Source: a virus
Virus record (IMG/VR): IMGVR_UViG_3300025071_000023
Location: 1 to 34,633 of that record
Reading direction: 5' to 3' (one strand)
Length of the DNA: 34,633 nt
In this document: positions 2,369 to 31,648 of the stretch, in pieces
Numbering within the stretch: the stretch's first letter is position 1
How the letters are laid out: every line of letters starts with the position of its first letter
Program-made: the position numbers and the translations under genes
The notes under the pieces: model-generated
The model's input: the letters and a program-made list of their open reading frames with translations, nothing else
Database searches by the model: none
Told to the model about the DNA's origin: nothing

Positions 2369-2471
2369 TGGCCGGCTTTATACATTTCAAGAGGTTTCGA
2401 TGATCGGTAGAGGCCAGAAGTATTATAGCCAGTATGTCTGGCAACGGGCATTAATTACCGGACAGAAATGA
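2241..2471 (+). CDS. Lipoprotein, possible o-spanin (Rz1-like)
   Basis: ATG at 2241 is preferred over the TTG at 2238, giving 76 residues. The N-terminus is a lipoprotein signal peptide: MTWKTK, a hydrophobic core (LISWLALVML) and the lipobox LPSC followed by GSN. The first part of the gene is nested in a different frame of the coiled-coil gene at 2168-2368, which is the hallmark arrangement of overlapping spanin genes, although it extends ~100 bases beyond. The stop overlaps the start of the amidase gene. At 76 residues with little proline it is longer than lambda Rz1, so the assignment rests on the lipobox and the nesting. Confidence 0.65.
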   Translation: MTWKTKLISWLALVMLLPSCGSNVSQKELNASSYDPPVITLTDGRLYTFQEVSMIGRGQKYYSQYVWQRALITGQK

Positions 2472-3073
2472 AATCAATATTTGAAAAGCTAATAGCTATC
2501 TTCTCGCGCAAACCAAAGCCGAGGATCAAGAAAGTATTGATTTGCGTGGGCCACTCTAGAATGGGCGATAAAGGCGCTGTGAGCCGAGGCAACGTCAGTG
2601 AGTGGGCTTATAATCAATACGTTGCTGAGAAGCTACGAGAGAAGCTTATAGAGCGTTCTATATCATCAACAGTGATTTCCGAGACTCCATTTAAAGGGTA
2701 TCACAAATCTTGTTCGTATTTATCTGAGCAGTCTTGGGGTTACGATTGCGTAATTGAGCTGCATTTTAATTCTCATACGGCAAGCGCAAATGGATTTGAG
2801 TATCTCTATTGCGCCGGCAGCGAAAAAGGTAAAAAGCTAGCAGAGTCATTTCGTAAAATCCACTCGGAGGTTGTGCCAGGACAGAAAGATAGAGGGGTCA
2901 AGGCAATTAGCCAAGGGGGTAGAGGCTACAGGTTCTTATCCAAAACTAAACCACCGGCGGCTATATTGGAGCCGTTTTTCGGCAGCAATGCTAAGGAGTG
3001 GGTGTTGTTTGACGGCATGGAGTCGGAGCTAGCTCAGATCTACTGCGATGCTCTAGTCGATTATTTGGCGTAA
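2468..3073 (+). CDS. Endolysin, N-acetylmuramoyl-L-alanine amidase (Amidase_3-like)
   Basis: This gene encodes 201 residues and is predicted to cleave the amide bond between N-acetylmuramic acid and the stem peptide. The Amidase_3 pattern is visible: VLICVGHS with H29, a glutamate at E45, ELHFNSH with H99 and H103, and a late glutamate E168 in ILEPFFGSN; these would hold zinc and act in catalysis. The first ~20 residues (MKSIFEKLIAIFSRKPKPR) are basic and partly hydrophobic, perhaps a signal-anchor-like tail, but no clear cleavable signal is seen. It closes the lysis cassette. The stop is followed within seven bases by the hairpin array. Confidence 0.85.
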   Translation: MKSIFEKLIAIFSRKPKPRIKKVLICVGHSRMGDKGAVSRGNVSEWAYNQYVAEKLREKLIERSISSTVISETPFKGYHKSCSYLSEQSWGYDCVIELHFNSHTASANGFEYLYCAGSEKGKKLAESFRKIHSEVVPGQKDRGVKAISQGGRGYRFLSKTKPPAAILEPFFGSNAKEWVLFDGMESELAQIYCDALVDYLA

Positions 3074-3079
3074 AAAAGC

Positions 3080-3196
3080 GGAGTGTTTCTTGCATAAGTC
3101 CTCCAAAAACGGCGTAGTTGTTGCATAGCTACGCCAAAAACGGGGTAGTTGTTGCATAGTTACCCCAGAGCGGGGTAGTTGTTGCATAACTACCCC
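3080..3196 (+). repeat. Four tandem covarying 25-nt hairpins
   Basis: Four 25-base units lie at 3080-3104, 3111-3135, 3142-3166 and 3172-3196, separated by A-rich spacers (AAAAAC, AAAAAC, AGAGC). Each folds as a 9-bp stem with a 7-base loop, (G/C)TTGCAT. Stem pair 3-23 changes as A-T, C-G, G-C, G-C, always complementary. All but one of the other departures from Watson-Crick pairing are G-U pairs if the + strand is transcribed; the exception is a U-C mismatch at pair 5-21 of unit 1. On the - strand the wobbles would become A-C. This supports a structured + strand RNA rather than a plain DNA operator. No U-tract follows, so these are not ordinary terminators. Confidence 0.85.
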
Positions 3197-3256
3197 AATA
3201 TTTCGTCTGTAAAATAAAGAACCACAGCACCTAATTAAAATAATTTAAGAAATATA

Positions 3257-3287
3257 TTTGACTGGTTTCTATTTTTCGCTAGGTTTA
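3257..3287 (+). promoter_or_regulatory. Early promoter candidate (Bacteroidetes-type)
   Basis: TTTG at 3257-3260 and TAGGTTTA at 3280-3287 are separated by 19 bases. The Bacteroidetes consensus is TTTG or TTG, 19-21 bases, then TAnnTTTG; seven of eight positions of the second box match. The upstream 40 bases are very A/T-rich. The site precedes the first early gene. As a sigma70 site, TTGACT has only a weak -10 at 16 bases. The TAGG at 3280-3283 can also pair with CCTA at 3307-3310 around a TCAGC/GCTGA stem (3293-3306), so the leader can fold. Confidence 0.4.
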
Positions 3288-3314
3288 ATTTATCAGCAAG
3301 AGCTGACCTAAAAG

Positions 3315-3443
3315 ATGAAACTAATACAAGTTGACCAAAAAACACATCAGGCACTTAAGGTGCTTGCCGTCACAAAGGGAGTAAGCCTCAAAGACTTAGT
3401 CCAGAACCTGCTTAGCAAAGCATTGAAAGGAGCAAGAAAATGA
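3315..3443 (+). CDS. Ribbon-helix-helix-like small regulator
   Basis: ATG 3315 to TGA 3441-3443 encodes 42 residues. A short strand (MKLIQVD) is followed by helix QKTHQALKVLAVTKG, a turn with GVSL, and helix KDLVQNLLSKALK. This strand-helix-helix layout and spacing match CopG/Arc-type dimeric DNA-binding proteins. It is the first gene after the early promoter candidate and overlaps the next gene at ATGA (3440-3443). An autoregulatory or early-switch role is plausible; the leader stem at 3293-3306 is a possible operator. No experimental-type evidence is visible. Confidence 0.6.
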   Translation: MKLIQVDQKTHQALKVLAVTKGVSLKDLVQNLLSKALKGARK

Positions 3444-6955: not shown

Positions 6956-7508
6956 AGAAATCAATAAGTGGCTTGCTAAGTGGGGCTTTCCTGCTCGCCA
7001 CATAGCAAACTTGATGAAAATGCACGGGGACGGGCTTAGTAAAGCTTTGCAGCTGGAGGAGCGAGTGATAGGCGGTGACTGCCTACTCATCCTCTGCGGT
7101 GATCGTGGCCCAGGTAAGACTCAAATCGCTACAAAGTGGGCTGCGATGGCTGCTAAGAAGGATAAAGGTAGTCGATATTTCAAGACTCATGATCTTTTGG
7201 AGACAATCAGGCAGCAGTTCGGGGATGACAGGCAGCAAAAAGGCTCGGCTCGTGACACGCTCCAGCAGGCTAAGAAGGTCTCACTGCTCATTCTAGACGA
7301 ATGGAGCGAGCTGGCCGGCACTGATTGGGAGCAGAGGACGCTCACTAACCTTATTGACCATCGCTACGACAATCTTATGGCGACCGTGATCATCACAAAT
7401 CACAAGCCAGCCGAGGCAGCGGCAGCGGTCGGAAGATCGATCTGGTCGAGAGCCGAGGAGACCGGTGGGGTAGTGAATTGCAACTGGAAATCTTACCGAA
7501 ATAAATGA
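6939..7508 (+). CDS. DnaC-like helicase-loader ATPase
   Basis: This gene encodes 189 residues with a strong ribosome site (GGAAGGAGA, about 8 bases before ATG), and overlaps the end of the initiator gene by 17 bases. Walker A is G54DRGPGKT61, Walker B is LLILDE (116-121), and a sensor-type asparagine follows in TVIITNH (N154). Length and the WxxRTxxNLxDxRYDNxxxTxxxTNxxP-like pattern fit the DnaC/IstB AAA+ family. The N-terminal ~45 residues are shorter than in E. coli DnaC. It would load the host replicative helicase at the phage origin. The proline in GPGKT is uncommon in Walker A motifs but keeps the GKT core. Confidence 0.85.
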   Translation: MSLNYEEINKWLAKWGFPARHIANLMKMHGDGLSKALQLEERVIGGDCLLILCGDRGPGKTQIATKWAAMAAKKDKGSRYFKTHDLLETIRQQFGDDRQQKGSARDTLQQAKKVSLLILDEWSELAGTDWEQRTLTNLIDHRYDNLMATVIITNHKPAEAAAAVGRSIWSRAEETGGVVNCNWKSYRNK

Positions 7509-7774
7509 GCGATCAAGAGAACATCGATACCGCGACAGCTATTATTCATTGTATCTGCGATAAATACAGCTTGACTAGTAAAGAAATCTTAAGCAATACC
7601 AGAACTGACAGAATAGCACACCCAAGAATGATGGCGATGGCTTTGATACGACGGCACACAACATTCTCAACACCGAAGATAGCAGAGATTTTCAGAAAAA
7701 GAGACCACGGGACCGTCCTCCATGCCACTAAAAGGTTTGGACATATTAAAATTAATGAACTGACTCATGCCTAG
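7505..7774 (+). CDS. Stand-alone DnaA domain IV protein
   Basis: This gene encodes 89 residues. It matches the C-terminal DNA-binding domain of DnaA: HPRMMAMALIRRHTTFSTPK, then IAEIFRKRDHGTVLHATKRF. The DnaA signature (helix-turn-helix with RDHxTVxHA) sits at about residues 63-77. The AAA+ ATPase and helicase-binding domains of full DnaA are absent, so it cannot form an ATP-driven filament alone; the ATPase could come from the adjacent DnaC-like protein, whose stop it overlaps by 4 bases. It probably recognises DnaA-box-like DNA, perhaps at the origin candidate near 6646. It could instead be a decoy that titrates host boxes. Confidence 0.85.
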   Translation: MSDQENIDTATAIIHCICDKYSLTSKEILSNTRTDRIAHPRMMAMALIRRHTTFSTPKIAEIFRKRDHGTVLHATKRFGHIKINELTHA

Positions 7775-10852: not shown

Positions 10853-10901
10853 CTTTGCAGCAGCTTGCTGCTTTGTGTTTAATTCATATTAGTGTGTAAC
10901 A

Positions 10902-10939
10902 ACCGGTCTGAGTATTTAGTTGCTCAGGCCGGTTTTTTT
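10902..10939 (+). terminator. Rho-independent terminator before the terminase genes
   Basis: ACCGGTCTGAG (10902-10912) pairs with CTCAGGCCGGT (10923-10933) with one G-U pair around a 10-base loop, followed directly by TTTTTTT (10933-10939). It separates early genes from the packaging and virion genes and would stop the early transcript on the + strand. Confidence 0.9.
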
Positions 10940-17454: not shown

Positions 17455-17475
17455 TCCATAGCAACAACTAACAAG

Positions 17476-17515
17476 GGTCCGTCTGTCTTTCGGGGCGGGC
17501 GGGCCTTTCCTTTTT
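17476..17515 (+). terminator. Strong terminator abutting the tail tube A start codon
   Basis: GGTCCGTCTGTC (17476-17487) pairs with GGCGGGCGGGCC (17494-17505) over 12 positions using four G-U pairs, loop TTTCGG, followed by TTTCCTTTTT to 17515. The next gene's ATG is at 17516, so the U-tract occupies the place of its ribosome site. Confidence 0.88.
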
Positions 17516-23188: not shown

Positions 23189-26100
23189 ATGGAACCTGAC
23201 TATCAAGGACAGCCAATAACAACTCCTGACGCGCCTCCATTTGTGCCAGGTGTAACAGATCAAAGGTATGCTCCAGAAAGAGAGGAGCCTATTGAGCCTA
23301 TTACAGTTCCTGATGACCCTCCGTATGTTGAAGGAATTACAGATAAAAGATATGCTCCAGAATTTAAAGGAATTACAGATCAAGGGCTTGCTCCAAAAGT
23401 TCAAGAAGTTTCGGAATTCGTAGAAAAAGCCAGCGCCCCTTCTGGAATATCTACTCCTGATCTTTATTATTTAGGTGCAGACGACATTGCCAATAATGGA
23501 TTATCTCAGATTGAAAGTGAAAAGCTTGTTGCTCAAAACAATTGGGTAAGAGAGTCTTTAGGTAATATAGAAAGCGCTGTTCTGGATTACGAAAACTTTT
23601 TACCAGAATCAACTAAGCCAGTTAAAAACCGAGCATTAATTAGAGCCACTATGGAGGCAGAGCTTGGGTATGATCCTCCAACAATTTTTGAATACAAAAC
23701 AAGTAGAAATCAAGCTTACAAGAAATTGTTTGGTAAAGATCTTTCTGAAGACTTGGGAGATCCTGAGCAAGCTTTTGTAAACTCTTTAACTAATAGAGCT
23801 GTAATCAAAAAAGAGGATTTTGAGTTTTATGAAAAAGTAGATCGTCAGGCAACTCTTTCAGCAATACTTGGAGATGGGTTAATAGAGCTACAGTTTGGCG
23901 AATCTGTAAAAGATGATCCTGCTTTTATTCGTCAAAAAGACAAAGCAATTAAGCGTTGGGCAGAAACACAAGAAGCAATTAGCGATCAATATGGGGACAT
24001 AATCCCAAAGCTTCGCACAACATTTCGCCAAATGCAATCTGGGGATGAATGGATTACTCAGGCTGGTTCTGTAGCTAAAACTTTAAATGAAGAAGATAAA
24101 ACAAAATTTCTTCAAGTTCTTAGAGATTTAGCAGTAACATACCCAACTGAAGAGCTAGAGAGCGGCTTTAAAAAACTTGGTTTAAATTTAAAGAAATCGG
24201 GAAGAGGTGTGTCTGGCGCTATTGATGCCGCTATTGTAGGAACAGGAGATATAGTAAGAGAAGGCGGTACTGTTTCTTTGGCAGATTTATTTGGGGGCGG
24301 CGAGTGGTATGCTAAAGAACAAGAAAGAAAAGCCGCTGATGCAAAATGGGCTGCTGCTTATCGCAAAGAACAAGATTTCGTTGCAGATGTTCGCAGAATA
24401 TTTGAAGAAGATTATGATCCTATTAGACCTTTGGCAGAAAAAGGATCTACGTTAAGAGCTGTTGAAGAAGGTGTTTATGCAATACCTGGAGCTGTTACTA
24501 CTACAGCAATGGCGTTTGTGCCAATTGTGGGAATGACTGCCACATATGGAACTATTAGAGAATTTGAAAGGCAGAAATATCGTGGTCGATTAATTGCAAA
24601 TGGCGTTCCTAGAGAAAAAGCTGCTGAAATAGCAGAGGCTTTATCTACTGTTTCTGCCGCCCCTCAAGTTTTGCTTGAAAAACTGCAAGCAAATATAGTT
24701 GGAGGTAAATCTCCAATATTCTCAAAAGTATTAGGAAAAGTTGACGGCTTATTAAAAACTAAAGCTACAAGGTTTACGGGCAGATTTTTAGCAGCAAGTT
24801 TGGGCGAGACTACTATTGAGTTAATGCAGGAGCTTACTTCTGAAACTGTTCAAGATCTTGCAAGCGAGCTGCAAAAAGAAATTCCTGACATTGAATGGAA
24901 GAACGGAAAAGATGGATACTTTGATGGTTATTTTAACAAAACCATTACAACATTTGTAGCCGTTGCCCCATTGTCATTTATACCGGCAGCAAGAGGGTTG
25001 TCTGCTGATAATAGAGCCGCAGCTATTAAGACGACTTCACCTATTGTTAGAAAAGCTTGGGGGTTTAAACCAAAAGATAATGCCGCTATTGATGAAGCTA
25101 AAACTCCAGGCGAAACAACAAATGCGGTAGAAAACGCTTTAAAAAATCGTGATCCACAATCAGAAAGCGCAAAGGAAGCAACTAAAGAGTTAGAACAAAA
25201 ACTTAAAAAAGAACAAGAAGCTTTAAAGAAATTAGAAGATTCTGGAGTTATTCCTAGCGTTAGAACTTCTAAAGATAATAAAGGTTTTGAGGTTTATGAC
25301 GAGCAAACTGATGCGGTTATTTCTTATGCTGACACAGCCACTGAAGCAACCGAGGCTGTTCTTGATACAATAGGAATGCGAGAAAACGCAACTCAAGACG
25401 TTATTGACGAAATGAGTTCTCTTATTGAAGCCGCAAAACAAGTTTCGGAAGATACTGGAGTAACTCAAGAGATTTCTCCTACGCAAATTGTAACTCCCGA
25501 AATGGCAAATAAAATCTTTCCTGAGTCAGCTAGGAGGATAGCAGAAGAATCTAAGTTAATTGAAGTTGCGGAAGGAGGTACTGGCGCTGTAACTGAAGCT
25601 GTTTTTAATCCTCAGCAAATTGTTACAGGTGTAGCAATACCTAAAGGAATACAGGGCAGAATTGAAGATGTAACAAAACTTTATGGTGGATCTAATATTT
25701 TTACACTTATTCACGAAAGATCTCATCATGTAAGGAGAGAGTTAATTGCGCGAGGAGAGCTTAGTGAAGAAAAGCAAATTTCATTTTTCAGAAAGCTTAA
25801 TGCTGAATTAAAAGGTAGAAAAACTAAAACAGGGCAATCTGTAGAGTTTAAAGGTATTGACGGAGATACTGTTACGGAGACAGCCTTAGATGAAGCGTGG
25901 GCGCATTTTGCAGAAATTGCAATTTTGCGAACAAGAAACGGCAAAAAATCAAAGCTTAGAAGCTTGTTAAACAAAAACCTTTCCGCAATGGTTAGAGCTA
26001 ATGTTCCAGGCGCTCGTCAGTTTAAAGCGTTCATTAGAGCGATGAAGGACTTTTTTGCTTTAGACCTTACTAGAGCAGTAATTTTACAAAAAGCTGTAAG

Positions 26101-29100
26101 AGACGGCAAGCTTGACGCAGCAGAAATGCAAGAGTTTGAAGCAATGGTTTTGGGAGAAACCCTGCAAGAGCAACACGAAGAACAAGTCTTACAGTCTAGG
26201 GAAGAATTAATTCAGCAAGAAGGCCCATCGTTTTCTTTAGCAAAAGATATTAAGCCTTACAAAGATAGAGATGGAGACGAGCAAGGAGAGCCTCTTACTG
26301 AAACAGAAATCAAAGAAGGTATTGAAGATGAGCCTGGGACTTTAGCCGATGTTGAGATCGATGATGATAAATTTAGCGATAGCCAAGCTGGAGAAGTGTC
26401 TTTTTCTATTGCGGGAAAAGCACCAATAATTACAAAGAGCTTATTAAAAGGGAAAAAGAAGTTTGTTTACTTTTCAGACAGAACAAGAGTTGGTGTTTAT
26501 ACTGGCTTAGATCCAAAAAGCGGAATCAAAATTGATCTTCAAGGTGGTCCAAAGTATCCTTTTATTAAAGGACACGGAAAAGCAAAAGCTGGATGGGCTT
26601 TTACTACTGAAGGTATGTTTACTAGATTTGCAAAAAGAGTAGCATCTACTGACGGGATTGGGCTTGTTACTCTTTATTCAAAAGAAAACCTTAGAGCTAA
26701 TCCGACTTTTCTAAAAGCTTACGTTGAAGAGGTAAAATGGGCAATTGAAGACGGGTCTCTTAATGAGGCAGATTTTCTTGAAGTAACAAATAACTTGCGA
26801 GAAGCTACGGTAAACTCAAAGAAGTTTAAAGAAAACTCGGAGTGGGCATCTTTGTTTCAAAAGGAATGGAAAACGGTAAGCGATTTTTCTATTGCTATGG
26901 AAACAGCGACCTTTGAAATTAGGTCTGGAATGTTTTTTGCTTACAACGCTAAGAAAGTTGGTGAAAATAAAGGCTCAAAAATTGGAGGTGATAAACTTGT
27001 AGCAAGAGGGTTTCCAAACATTTCTAAAATGGTAGATCTTTTTACTGATCCTGATCTTGATCAATTAGAGACTGGAACTATTGTTTCTGCTGTTCAGTTT
27101 GAACCTAATCAAAAATCATCTTCAAAAGCTGAAGAAATTGGAGCTGAAAACCATCTTAGTTATCCTGTTGTAATTAAAGGCAAAGGGTTAGGTTTTTTTA
27201 AAAAGCCTATTCATCTTAGGAAAGTATTACCTGTTAAAGCAGGAAAAACTGAGAGAAATATGATGCGGTCTGCTGAAACAAGCATGGGATCGGCATCTTT
27301 CTCCCTTGGTCGATCCGAGGTAACTCCGACAGCCATCACCCAAACTTTTCCAACTAAGGATGGTGGGGTTGTTGGCCCAGCTTCGTTTTCAATCTCGGCT
27401 TTCCACGGGACACCGCACAAGGTAGACGAGTTTAGCACTGAGCAGATCGGCACGGGAGAGGGCGCTCAGGCTTACGGGTATGGGCTTTACTTTGCTGAGA
27501 GTGAGGATGTGGCGCAGAGGTATAGGGACGACTTGACCGATACCGGATTTGCGAAAAGAAGGCTCAAAAAAGCGGGGGGCGATATTGATGTGGCTCTTAC
27601 TGAGGCAAGGGAAAGAGCTAGCAAATATAGAAAGGGGGGCGCGGATGCCTATGCTAGTGCCATTGAGCAGGACATCAGGTTTCTTGAAAAATACAAAGAG
27701 TCTGGAGAGTGGGCTTCCGGCTCCCTCTACACCGTAGAGCTAAACGTCGAGCAGGACGAGCTTCTTGATTGGAATAAGCCGATGAGTGAGCAAAGTGAGT
27801 CAATAAGGTCTAAGATGCTAACCATATTACAAGGAGATGCGTCAATGTTTCTGGATGTGAGGGAAGCCGCTAATCGATTAGAAAAAGGTGAATACTTGGA
27901 CGGTAGGCAAGCTTACAACCAACTTCAATCAACTATAGGGTCAAAAAGAGCCTCCGAAGCCCTTGTCGCAGCAGGAATCAAAGGCATCCGCTACCTTGAT
28001 GGAGCTAGTAGAGCAGACGGAGAAGGCACATCTAACTACGTCATTTTTAACGATGCTGATATTACGATCACTGAAGAGAACGGAAATCCGGTTAACCTTT
28101 CATCCCCTAGTTTTTCTATAGCGTCTGATAAGATGGCTACCAGTCTTGTGACTGACGTAACTAAACGCATTAAAGATCCAGAGGCTCGCGCTGAAATGTT
28201 CCAGCGTATTCTTAATAAAATAACGGGCATTAAAAGAGACGTGAAATCTCTTACAGGCAGTGATATTAATGACATTAATCGCCGGTCAAAAATAGAAGCT
28301 CTTGAAGAAGAAAAAGAAGACCTAAAAGAAATTCAAGTTGAAGTAAGTGAGGTTTCAAAAGACCAAGTAGATGAAATAAAAGTTGAGCTTGGTGCAATTG
28401 ATCAAGCCTTTGAGACTGACGTTGAAAAGCTAAAAGAGCAACACGAAAACAAAGTGGCTAAAATCGGGGAAGATATTGTCGCTAAATATAACCACAGGAT
28501 TGAAGCAGCTAAAGGCAGTGCAAAAAAAGCTCTTGTGAAAGAAGCTAAGGCCACTCAATCAGAAAGATTAAAGGCTGAGCGAAAAAGATTTTCTGACGAA
28601 AAGAAGTTAGCTAAATCAAAGATTGCAACTGAAAAAGCTAAGCTAGAATCTCAGTTAAAAACTGCTGATTTTGAGGTTAAAAGGCAACAGGCTGCTAGAG
28701 AGTTTGAAGTATCTAAAGAAATAACTAAGCTAGAAGCTCAGATTTCTGATCTTAAAGCAAAAAGCAAAGTGTCCGACATTAGAGACTCGTTAGTAGCCCT
28801 TGATGCTATTGTTGTTTCTTTACCTGTAGAATTAAGAGGAAAAATTGGAGGGTTTACTCAGATCTCTAAACTAAATACCGAAGAAAAACGAATTGAGTTT
28901 CTCCTAAAAAGAATGGAGAAAGTTGATGCTGTAGTTGAGGCCTGGATAAAAGGCGAATACCAGAAACAGATAAAGAAATTATTTGATCGCGCTAAGCCTA
29001 AAAAGGACAGCAAAGGAATTCTTAAATCTAAGATCGCGGCAGAATACGCTGACCGCGCAATGGAGATTGAAAAGTTGTCTAAAATGTCAGCCGAGGAACT

Positions 29101-31648
29101 TGGCAAAAAGACAGACGCTATTCAAAAAGAAATGGAGGGAGAAGTTGATCCAGAAACAATGGACCAGCTTGTAAATGATTTGGTTGAGTTTTTATCTTTT
29201 GGAAATATTAAAGGGATGAATGCTATGGCCCTTGATGGGTTTTATAGAAACCTCAATGCTGTAGTTGAAACCGGAAAAACTCTAAAAGAAATTGCTGATG
29301 CTGAGTTTAAAGAAGAAGCAGAAGAGGTTAAAGCAATTGTAAATAATGATGTTACAGGCGGCAAAGGGAAAATGCTTTCTAGTGAGGCTAAGCTTAGAAA
29401 AAAAGAAAGACAAAAATCCGTTGTTCCTTTATCAAAAATTGGAGCTGAAAATATAGAGATTAGAGGATTGTCTGATTTTCATAGAAAGAATATTTCTTTC
29501 GAATGGTTGATGAACAACCTTTCTAGAGAAAACAAAGAAGTAGGAACATTAGCTAGCGAAACTCACAAGCGCTTATCGACAATGGTTCATGTTAGCACGC
29601 ATAATGAAAAAAATGCTAACGGACAAATGCAAAGAAGATACCAAGATTTTCTTTCTTCAGTTTTTAAAGGGAAAAAAGGACTTTCTTTATCAAATGCGAT
29701 TTATGAATCGTTAATGGAAGAGCAGGAAAAAACAGGAGTAATTCGCATTGATTACCAAGGCAAGGGGGCGTTTGAGAAAAAGAAACTTCGCGTCTCTAAT
29801 ATAGAGGCCGTCTTAAGTGGGGAAACTACAATAGAGACCCTTGGGTTAACTAAATCGGAGTGGGAGTCAGCAAAAGCTAAATATGATGAAATTAAACAAT
29901 CATTAATAGAAAAATCTGAAAGCTCTAGACAGACAAAACAAGAAGCAGAAAACAAAAAAGCCAAAAAAGCAGAAAGAGAACCTAAAAAGATTGAGAGTGA
30001 TCCTGTATCCCTAAAAGGAAATAAGCCCATTGAATATAAATCCGCAAATGTCGGAACTCCAGATAATTTAACTTTATCACAAGCTCAGGCCATTAACCTA
30101 ACAATGCTTTTTAGACAAGAAGGATTGCGTGATTCAATGATTCACGAAGGCTATACTGAAGATACAATGAAACAGATGGAGGAGTTTTTGACTCCTGAGT
30201 CTATTGAGATACGAGATTGGCTTACTAATGAATACGAAGAAAACTACAATGTAGTTAATGAGGTCTTTAAGAAAGCTAATGGAATCTCATTGCCTAAAAC
30301 TGATTTTTATTCTCCTGCAAGAAGAATAGCTGAAGGAAAAGTAAAAGACATGGATATTGATAGTTATGGCAGTAAAGCCATGAGCGTTACTCCTACTTTC
30401 ACCATTTCCAGAACAACAAATTTTGCACAAGTTGATCAGTCAGCAGATGCTATATCCATCTATATGGAACACATGGTTCAAACAAACCATTATATTTCGT
30501 GGGCTGAAACAGTTAAAATGCTAAGAACGGTGTTTAATGATAAATCTGTTAAACAAAACGTAAAAGATTACGCTGGCTCTTCTTTGTTAAGTGCTATCAA
30601 TGAAAGATTAGAGTGGTTTGCAGATGGCGGAAACAGAAAAGCTACGCACTTAAGATGGGTCGATAAACTTAGACTTGCCCACACTTATTCTTCATTGTCT
30701 TACAACTGGGGCGTTGGAATTAAGCAGCTAACTTCACTTCCAGCGTATGCGTTCGATATGTCTTTTAAAGATTTTGCTAAATACCAATTTAAATTCCTTA
30801 AAAATCCCATCGCCAACTTTAACGAAATGCTTAAAGAACAGTATGTTCAGACTCGTTTTAAAGAAGGTTATGAAAGAGATGTTATTGACGGTCTTAAAAA
30901 TGAAAAAGGATTAATTGTAAAAGGGCTTCAATTTGGAATGCTTACTGGCAAAATTGGAGATATTATACCAGTTATCGCAGGTGGTTGGATGGCTAAACAG
31001 AGGTCTTATGATATGTCTATTAAAGAAGGTCTTAGTGAGCAAGAAGCAAGAGCTAAAGCCAAAATAGACTTTGAAATGATTACAGATCGCGCTCAGCAAG
31101 CTGGAGATTTAAAAGATCTCTCATCACTACAAGGAGGAGGCTCATTGTTCAAAATGTTTACAATGTATAAAACAAGCCCAAGACAATACTATTCTAATTT
31201 ATACGAATCATTTTTAGACGCCAAAGCAGGAAAAAAGGGATCTAAAAAGGAATTTGGCAGGAGGCTAGCAATTGGACAGGTAATATTGCCTTTAATGTTT
31301 CAGTTTGCTAGCGACGCGCTAAGAAGTTTTGTTGATGACGATGAAGATTTTGAAGCAGAAAATTATTTACGAGCGGTTCTTATGGGTCCGTTAAACGGGT
31401 TATTTATTGCAGGAGATTTTGCTGAGCTAGGGTTTAGTTCAATTGCAGGAACAAGAATCTGGGACGAAAAAATACCAATTTTAGACGGTTTAACAAAAGC
31501 CGTAAGAGGACTGTCTGATATTATAAACGGAGAGTTTATTGAAGGTGTTGATGAAGTTGCTGTAGGAATTGGAAAAACTATGCCTTCAGCTCCTACATAT
31601 TACCATGTAATCAGAAGGGAGCTAAAAAGATTCGGAATTGGTGATTAG
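23189..31648 (+). CDS. Giant polyvalent internal virion protein (gp16-like) with protease and ART-like domains
   Basis: This gene encodes 2819 residues, about twice T7 gp16. Visible in order: N-terminal repeats ending RYAPE (9-30, 37-58); a hydrophobic segment near 434-455; a zinc-metalloprotease-like site H842-E-R-S-H846-H with DEAWAHFAE (901-909) as possible third ligand; an unrecognised domain at about 1075-1370; an ADP-ribosyltransferase-like domain of the ART-PolyVal type (AFHGTP with H1406, then AQAYGYGLYFAE, GIKGIRYLDG, TSNYVIFNDA) at about 1404-1635; a Lys/Glu-rich coiled coil at about 1700-1870; and a gp16-like C-terminus with LAHTYSSLSYNWGVGIKQLT and LLPLMFQF-like hydrophobic parts. 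SFS[I/L] recurs at 1014, 1071, 1370, 1399 and 1641. It is probably ejected into the host. Confidence 0.85.
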   Translation: MEPDYQGQPITTPDAPPFVPGVTDQRYAPEREEPIEPITVPDDPPYVEGITDKRYAPEFKGITDQGLAPKVQEVSEFVEKASAPSGISTPDLYYLGADDIANNGLSQIESEKLVAQNNWVRESLGNIESAVLDYENFLPESTKPVKNRALIRATMEAELGYDPPTIFEYKTSRNQAYKKLFGKDLSEDLGDPEQAFVNSLTNRAVIKKEDFEFYEKVDRQATLSAILGDGLIELQFGESVKDDPAFIRQKDKAIKRWAETQEAISDQYGDIIPKLRTTFRQMQSGDEWITQAGSVAKTLNEEDKTKFLQVLRDLAVTYPTEELESGFKKLGLNLKKSGRGVSGAIDAAIVGTGDIVREGGTVSLADLFGGGEWYAKEQERKAADAKWAAAYRKEQDFVADVRRIFEEDYDPIRPLAEKGSTLRAVEEGVYAIPGAVTTTAMAFVPIVGMTATYGTIREFERQKYRGRLIANGVPREKAAEIAEALSTVSAAPQVLLEKLQANIVGGKSPIFSKVLGKVDGLLKTKATRFTGRFLAASLGETTIELMQELTSETVQDLASELQKEIPDIEWKNGKDGYFDGYFNKTITTFVAVAPLSFIPAARGLSADNRAAAIKTTSPIVRKAWGFKPKDNAAIDEAKTPGETTNAVENALKNRDPQSESAKEATKELEQKLKKEQEALKKLEDSGVIPSVRTSKDNKGFEVYDEQTDAVISYADTATEATEAVLDTIGMRENATQDVIDEMSSLIEAAKQVSEDTGVTQEISPTQIVTPEMANKIFPESARRIAEESKLIEVAEGGTGAVTEAVFNPQQIVTGVAIPKGIQGRIEDVTKLYGGSNIFTLIHERSHHVRRELIARGELSEEKQISFFRKLNAELKGRKTKTGQSVEFKGIDGDTVTETALDEAWAHFAEIAILRTRNGKKSKLRSLLNKNLSAMVRANVPGARQFKAFIRAMKDFFALDLTRAVILQKAVRDGKLDAAEMQEFEAMVLGETLQEQHEEQVLQSREELIQQEGPSFSLAKDIKPYKDRDGDEQGEPLTETEIKEGIEDEPGTLADVEIDDDKFSDSQAGEVSFSIAGKAPIITKSLLKGKKKFVYFSDRTRVGVYTGLDPKSGIKIDLQGGPKYPFIKGHGKAKAGWAFTTEGMFTRFAKRVASTDGIGLVTLYSKENLRANPTFLKAYVEEVKWAIEDGSLNEADFLEVTNNLREATVNSKKFKENSEWASLFQKEWKTVSDFSIAMETATFEIRSGMFFAYNAKKVGENKGSKIGGDKLVARGFPNISKMVDLFTDPDLDQLETGTIVSAVQFEPNQKSSSKAEEIGAENHLSYPVVIKGKGLGFFKKPIHLRKVLPVKAGKTERNMMRSAETSMGSASFSLGRSEVTPTAITQTFPTKDGGVVGPASFSISAFHGTPHKVDEFSTEQIGTGEGAQAYGYGLYFAESEDVAQRYRDDLTDTGFAKRRLKKAGGDIDVALTEARERASKYRKGGADAYASAIEQDIRFLEKYKESGEWASGSLYTVELNVEQDELLDWNKPMSEQSESIRSKMLTILQGDASMFLDVREAANRLEKGEYLDGRQAYNQLQSTIGSKRASEALVAAGIKGIRYLDGASRADGEGTSNYVIFNDADITITEENGNPVNLSSPSFSIASDKMATSLVTDVTKRIKDPEARAEMFQRILNKITGIKRDVKSLTGSDINDINRRSKIEALEEEKEDLKEIQVEVSEVSKDQVDEIKVELGAIDQAFETDVEKLKEQHENKVAKIGEDIVAKYNHRIEAAKGSAKKALVKEAKATQSERLKAERKRFSDEKKLAKSKIATEKAKLESQLKTADFEVKRQQAAREFEVSKEITKLEAQISDLKAKSKVSDIRDSLVALDAIVVSLPVELRGKIGGFTQISKLNTEEKRIEFLLKRMEKVDAVVEAWIKGEYQKQIKKLFDRAKPKKDSKGILKSKIAAEYADRAMEIEKLSKMSAEELGKKTDAIQKEMEGEVDPETMDQLVNDLVEFLSFGNIKGMNAMALDGFYRNLNAVVETGKTLKEIADAEFKEEAEEVKAIVNNDVTGGKGKMLSSEAKLRKKERQKSVVPLSKIGAENIEIRGLSDFHRKNISFEWLMNNLSRENKEVGTLASETHKRLSTMVHVSTHNEKNANGQMQRRYQDFLSSVFKGKKGLSLSNAIYESLMEEQEKTGVIRIDYQGKGAFEKKKLRVSNIEAVLSGETTIETLGLTKSEWESAKAKYDEIKQSLIEKSESSRQTKQEAENKKAKKAEREPKKIESDPVSLKGNKPIEYKSANVGTPDNLTLSQAQAINLTMLFRQEGLRDSMIHEGYTEDTMKQMEEFLTPESIEIRDWLTNEYEENYNVVNEVFKKANGISLPKTDFYSPARRIAEGKVKDMDIDSYGSKAMSVTPTFTISRTTNFAQVDQSADAISIYMEHMVQTNHYISWAETVKMLRTVFNDKSVKQNVKDYAGSSLLSAINERLEWFADGGNRKATHLRWVDKLRLAHTYSSLSYNWGVGIKQLTSLPAYAFDMSFKDFAKYQFKFLKNPIANFNEMLKEQYVQTRFKEGYERDVIDGLKNEKGLIVKGLQFGMLTGKIGDIIPVIAGGWMAKQRSYDMSIKEGLSEQEARAKAKIDFEMITDRAQQAGDLKDLSSLQGGGSLFKMFTMYKTSPRQYYSNLYESFLDAKAGKKGSKKEFGRRLAIGQVILPLMFQFASDALRSFVDDDEDFEAENYLRAVLMGPLNGLFIAGDFAELGFSSIAGTRIWDEKIPILDGLTKAVRGLSDIINGEFIEGVDEVAVGIGKTMPSAPTYYHVIRRELKRFGIGD

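Follow-up and report, generated by a model that had tools for sequence, protein, structure and literature searches.

The repeat array and its surroundings

The window, meaning the whole stretch of 34,633 nucleotides analysed here, is a 34.6-kb phage record with podovirus-like late genes, and its terminase shares about 34% identity with Pelagibacter phage terminases, e.g. that of HTVC010P. Between the amidase gene and the early operon lie four 25-nucleotide inverted-repeat units, which follow each other in steps of 31, 31 and 30 nucleotides (Table 1). Both this placement and the starts of the units agree exactly with an earlier note on the same DNA, and the pairs that it gave for stem position 3-23 (A-T, C-G, G-C and G-C in units 1 to 4), its five G-U pairs of the plus strand and its single mismatch (5-21 in unit 1) were all reproduced. 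The TTGCAT loop is invariant across all units, with C or G as the preceding loop base, and the A-rich spacers between the units are 4-6 nucleotides long. The 7-nucleotide loop (C/G)UUGCAU is laid out like an anticodon loop with UGC, a match of low information. The claim that the segment holds no ORF is correct for the plus strand, whereas on the minus strand a 44-aa ORF (3053-3187) runs across the repeats; since this is the sole ORF and the periods break the frame, a coding repeat was ruled out. Likewise, the claimed lack of a U-tract holds on the plus strand but not on the minus strand, where the A-rich spacers become short runs of T.

Table 1. Positions of the array, its flanking features and related elements; positions are those of the window unless a relative is named.
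Feature	Position	Strand	Description
Amidase_3 endolysin gene	2468-3073	+	Pfam PF01520 (E 1.4e-18), PHROG endolysin; stop 5 nt before the element
P1 5' strand	3078-3087	+	GCGGAGUGUU; overlaps 5' arm of unit 1; predicted fold
Unit 1	3080-3104	+	GGAGTGTTTCTTGCATAAGTCCTCC; weak hairpin, -3.9 kcal/mol; unchanged in L021, L027 and L028
Unit 2	3111-3135	+	9-bp stem, GTTGCAT loop, -14.3 kcal/mol
Unit 3	3142-3166	+	hairpin, -9.8 kcal/mol; alternative pairing with unit 4 gives one long hairpin
Unit 4	3172-3196	+	perfect 9-bp stem, -15.1 kcal/mol; no U-tract behind
P1 3' strand	3197-3206	+	AAUAUUUCGU; directly behind unit 4; predicted fold
Likely early promoter	3258-3285	+	TTGACT-N16-TAGGTT; by eye, absent from consensus scan listing
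First early ORF	3315-3443	+	42 aa; two main alleles in the group
U-tract hairpin	10901-10934	+	strong; before the terminase genes
U-tract hairpin	17473-17508	+	strong; after the capsid gene
Minus-strand cassettes	L018:3107-3545, L026:1610-2048, L019:1326-1829	-	in the array slot of relatives

The early promoter, about 60 nucleotides downstream of the array, is conserved in phages with and without it, and the product of the 42-aa ORF behind it looks like a ribbon-helix-helix protein. Elsewhere in the window, an 89-aa protein (7505-7774) consists almost solely of a DnaA DNA-binding domain (Bac_DnaA_C, E 2e-21), and its gene adjoins that of a DnaC-like helicase loader; it may serve the phage as an initiator or compete with the host DnaA. 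The protein encoded at 9024-9386 matches both DUF3127 (E 7e-22) and a PHROG named single-strand DNA binding protein, a double match that may be a clue to DUF3127 function. A single ORF of 2819 aa (23189-31648) has a weak match to a virion-associated PHROG family and a polyvalent-protein ADP-ribosyltransferase match below the Pfam cut-off, and judged by these its product looks like a large polyvalent virion protein.

An exchangeable slot in a group of marine phages

Relatives of the window were found as 15 IMG/VR contigs forming one group, small and with closely related members, which was reached alike via the amidase, the 42-aa early protein, RecT and YqaJ. One of them (L017/L008) shares 99.94% identity with the window across 14.3 kb, is essentially the same phage and provides no independent evidence. 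The array is present in four further relatives, L020 (2 units), L021 (3), L027 (3) and L028 (4), and in the five phages it is invariably in plus orientation and directly behind the amidase stop codon. Seven of the 15 relatives, several of them from the same or sister samples, have no array, and their amidase stop is followed by AACAC and the promoter region. Loss of pairing in related phages, named in the earlier note as an outcome that would speak against its reading, is seen only partly, as what many relatives have lost is the array as a whole and not its pairing.

In three relatives (L018, L026 and L019) a minus-strand gene cassette takes the place of the array. The cassettes have a common promoter, leader and terminator and encode two unrelated small proteins of 66 and about 90 aa, one kind in L018 and L026 and another in L019. 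Their promoter is sigma-70-like (TTGACA-N17-TATTGT, read by eye) and their strong terminator ends in seven T's (T7), and neither cassette gene had a Pfam, PHROG or PADLOC match. The slot of the cassettes looks like an exchangeable accessory-gene site. The 42-aa protein has two main alleles, and each is found with all three slot states; this decoupling of the array state from the downstream allele indicates exchange of the slot by recombination. The array is accessory within this one group of marine phages.

Units 1 and 2 are identical between the window and L028 (50/50 positions), compared with 74% identity at amidase third codon positions and 71% in the downstream intergenic region, but the contrast is weaker when the amidase 3' end is taken as the background (97/106 identical). 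This identity of the two units could be due to selection or to a recent exchange of the array. Closer to the early ORF, a dyad (TCAGC-4 nt-GCTGA, window 3293-3306) separates the ORF from its promoter; in L022 and L028 the loop varies between unchanged arms, and L019, L020, L027 and L029 carry a deletion of the dyad. A role as operator or leader hairpin is possible.

The occurrence of the array also bears on several candidate identities. It is unlikely to be the operator of the 42-aa protein, as it is missing from phages whose flanks are conserved and whose version of the protein is 98% identical, and its absence from relatives with conserved flanks makes an essential replication or packaging site unlikely. 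The contig starts about 0.7-1.4 kb upstream of the amidase, taken as candidate genome ends, are not coincident. A CRISPR array or repeat mimic was rejected, as it would need unique spacers of about 25-40 nucleotides and not A-rich ones of the present length.

The searches gave no Rfam match in the five array phages and no match in other phages. Rfam 15 gave nothing at the gathering threshold for the window, L020, L021, L027 and L028, only a chance miRNA match (E 2.6), and the array searches detected neither a tRNA nor a known RNA family. A covariance model of the hairpins had no matches outside the arrays in the 15 records, and a search with the unit pattern found the array hairpins in this phage group only, the three other matches being single and unlike. 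A looser three-loop pattern run against viral and genome collections gave no other stem-bearing array among the matches listed, a two-unit pattern had no matches in genomes, and INPHARED yielded no useful match. No similar array was present in L063 (RecT 37% identical) or at the distant YqaJ loci L341-L352, and no matching description was found in the literature on tandem hairpins in phages.

Folding and strand preference

Positions 3060-3220 fold at -57.1 kcal/mol on the plus strand, where shuffles average -37.1 (z -4.9; 0/200 shuffles as good), and the minus strand is also below its own shuffles (z -4.4). For the array alone in the window, z was -7.1 on the plus strand versus -4.1 on the minus strand. 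The plus strand folds far below shuffles in the arrays of the window, L027 and L028, but those of L020 (z -0.9) and L021 (z -1.4) are not clearly better than shuffles.

Describing the element as four tandem hairpins oversimplifies it: unit 1 is a poor hairpin, and it probably pairs across the full array. Its 5' arm has a better partner in the segment directly behind unit 4 than in the 3' arm of its own hairpin, and the mean pair probability of the resulting helix, P1, is 0.6-0.9, varying with the stretch folded. Equivalent pairing occurs in four relatives. In L028, P1 is lengthened to 12/13 bp (CAGGCGGAGUGUU/AAUAUUCGGCCUG), and in L020 the arm pairs in a shifted register at a model probability of about 0.4, which leaves the helix less certain there. 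The pairing of the arm with the post-array segment beats 98% of segment shuffles in 5/5 arrays, the five cases being related to each other, and in all five the P1 duplex is stronger on the plus strand than on the minus strand. The changes in P1 are mostly U/C opposite G, by which pairing is kept only on the plus strand. According to these models, P1 is a possible closing helix around the array.

Across the seven distinct unit sequences of the five phages, 93.7% of the pair cells are kept on the plus strand versus 82.5% on the minus strand. Pair 3-23 occurs as three pair types and both sides change at pair 7-19, and the covariation score of 0.444 exceeds all 500 shuffles, which carry no correction for relatedness. 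Column 5-21 breaks on the plus strand in 4/7 distinct units, and in units of two relatives it is C-A, a wobble on the minus strand and a break on the plus strand. Counted as distinct wobble states, there are five for the plus strand versus one (C-A at 5-21) for the minus strand, and the G-U evidence for the plus strand is suggestive only. Some of the double changes could have their source in template-switch correction of palindromes. Selection on plus-strand RNA structure, as proposed in the earlier note, gains from the pairing bias and the closing-helix changes and loses from the low number of changes and the breaks at 5-21; on the sequences compared it is the better-supported reading, favoured but not proven, with few independent changes behind it.

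Possible functions of the array

We give a rough probability of 0.37 to a cis-acting role, in which the array forms a structured accessory RNA within the 3' untranslated tail of the late (lysis) transcript and serves there as a processing site or as a barrier at the 3' end. Read-through past the amidase would give an RNA carrying the TTGCAT hairpins, which may lie inside or beside the long-range closing helix. Such a structured tail could block 3'-to-5' exonucleases and/or be cut by a double-strand-specific RNase, and the 3' end of the late message would thereby be set, protected and kept apart from the early operon. This reading is favoured because of the fixed orientation, the fixed position, the plus-strand bias and the lack of a terminator U-tract. 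In the predicted fold a single long duplex, of a type that RNase III cleaves, can arise from units 3 and 4, and the hairpin that also lies directly behind the amidase stop in the cassette phages was counted in its favour. Against it, the seven array-free relatives are otherwise intact and the array is therefore dispensable, the L020 and L021 folds are close to shuffles, pairing-preserving changes are few, and column 5-21 breaks on the plus strand.

REP/BIME palindromes are 3' untranslated repeats that can stabilise the upstream mRNA, and in T7-type RNase III sites, mRNA ends are defined by long, imperfectly paired hairpins located between phage genes. The array shares palindromic repeats in a 3' untranslated region with REP/BIME, but REPs are scattered over host genomes whereas the array is at one locus in one phage group. 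It is likened to the T7 sites by its predicted fold, although these are single hairpins and not tandem identical units.

An unlikely alternative, though the most notable rival, is an RNA decoy acting in trans, in which the hairpin RNAs would bind an RNA-binding protein, nuclease or small RNA of the host or a rival phage, for instance by mimicking a repetitive RNA antitoxin. In phage PhiTE, expansion of tandem intergenic pseudo-ToxI repeats leads to escape from ToxIN (PMC3475682), and ToxN cleaves A-rich sites (PMC8860590). Like pseudo-ToxI (PMC3475682) and type III antitoxin RNAs, the array consists of tandem structured repeats of similar length (about 31 nucleotides) with A-rich single-stranded linkers in an intergenic phage locus, and its copy number differs among close relatives; its period of 30-31 in 2-4 copies falls within the tandem RNA repeats of about 20-50 nucleotides typical of type III antitoxins. 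The slot moreover hosts unrelated small protein genes, as an accessory cargo site would, and the loop is identical in every unit. However, this loop invariance is not significant as the changes are so few, and an anti-defence RNA would not be expected at a late position. The units are simple hairpins, unlike the 36-nt ToxI pseudoknots that are cut by the cognate toxin, and a loop paired with its spacers by at most 2-4 bases, with no stretch longer than 3-4 bp, in a crude test that is not a pseudoknot fold, hence no ToxI-like pseudoknot. Neither a toxin gene nearby nor a host system is in evidence: by PADLOC, no cognate endoribonuclease toxin lies directly downstream among the neighbouring ORFs tested, only small ORFs, and such a gene belongs to a full type III system and not to a mimic. 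STAXI elements also have two or three tandem copies of one structured RNA/ssDNA unit in mobile-element settings, but these units form pseudoknots, in many cases with UUCG loops, and lie close to genes for DNA handling (PMC2864571), and the present array is without an Rfam match. That the array is modular non-coding cargo, 2-4 UUGCAU hairpins partly enclosed by a helix in a swappable slot and serving as a trans decoy of a host factor (for example, a nuclease, RNA-binding protein or RNA toxin system), is quite doubtful.

A canonical plus-strand intrinsic terminator was excluded, as the U-tract is missing after every plus-strand unit, and the tail behind unit 4 (AATATTTCGT) gave only a weak match in the terminator consensus scan. 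The two strong U-tract hairpins elsewhere in the window recur in four relatives, both array carriers and array-free ones, and since the same phages thus have canonical U-tract terminators at other sites, the array is not a standard one. It seems rather improbable that the array is a non-canonical or minus-strand terminator, perhaps bidirectional and perhaps derived from the minus-strand cassette terminator hairpin of the relatives, with tandem hairpins that slow RNA polymerase, or stop it, where the late operon gives way to the early one. It does sit between operons with spacers that are T-runs on the minus strand, and its start (AAAAAAA..GCGGAG) resembles that of the cassette terminator in the same place, a resemblance by which the array may have grown from a hairpin of this type. 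Yet on the minus strand the T-runs adjoin the weaker stems and the loops are long, no minus-strand gene that would need an end exists in the array phages, and the array-free relatives manage without a terminator here.

That a hairpin was duplicated in tandem, neutrally or selfishly, and that the likeness of the units is due to recent descent and palindrome correction, has a small chance of being the explanation. The variation from 2 to 4 copies, the close relatives that lack any array between conserved flanks and the few independent changes agree with it, but five phages with diverged flanks retain the array, four of these share an identical unit 1, and neither the one-strand pairing bias nor a closing helix would be expected. 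Least probable is a DNA-level element, with the tandem palindromes as protein sites, a recombination boundary or a replication site, as the spacing of 30-31 bp (about three B-DNA turns), the recombination point at the slot and the minus strand that folds as well are set against half-sites that are not fixed (A, C or G at stem position 3), a loop asymmetric about the stem centre, the better pairing of the plus strand and the lack of the array beside a 98% identical 42-aa protein.

If the array is a 3'-end element, it would be a modest gain for phage mRNA biology. If it is a functional RNA, the accessory slots of phages, which are usually mined for small proteins, would also trade structured RNAs of adjustable copy number, and the array would offer a compact and testable case of an RNA-based phage-host interaction in marine phages.
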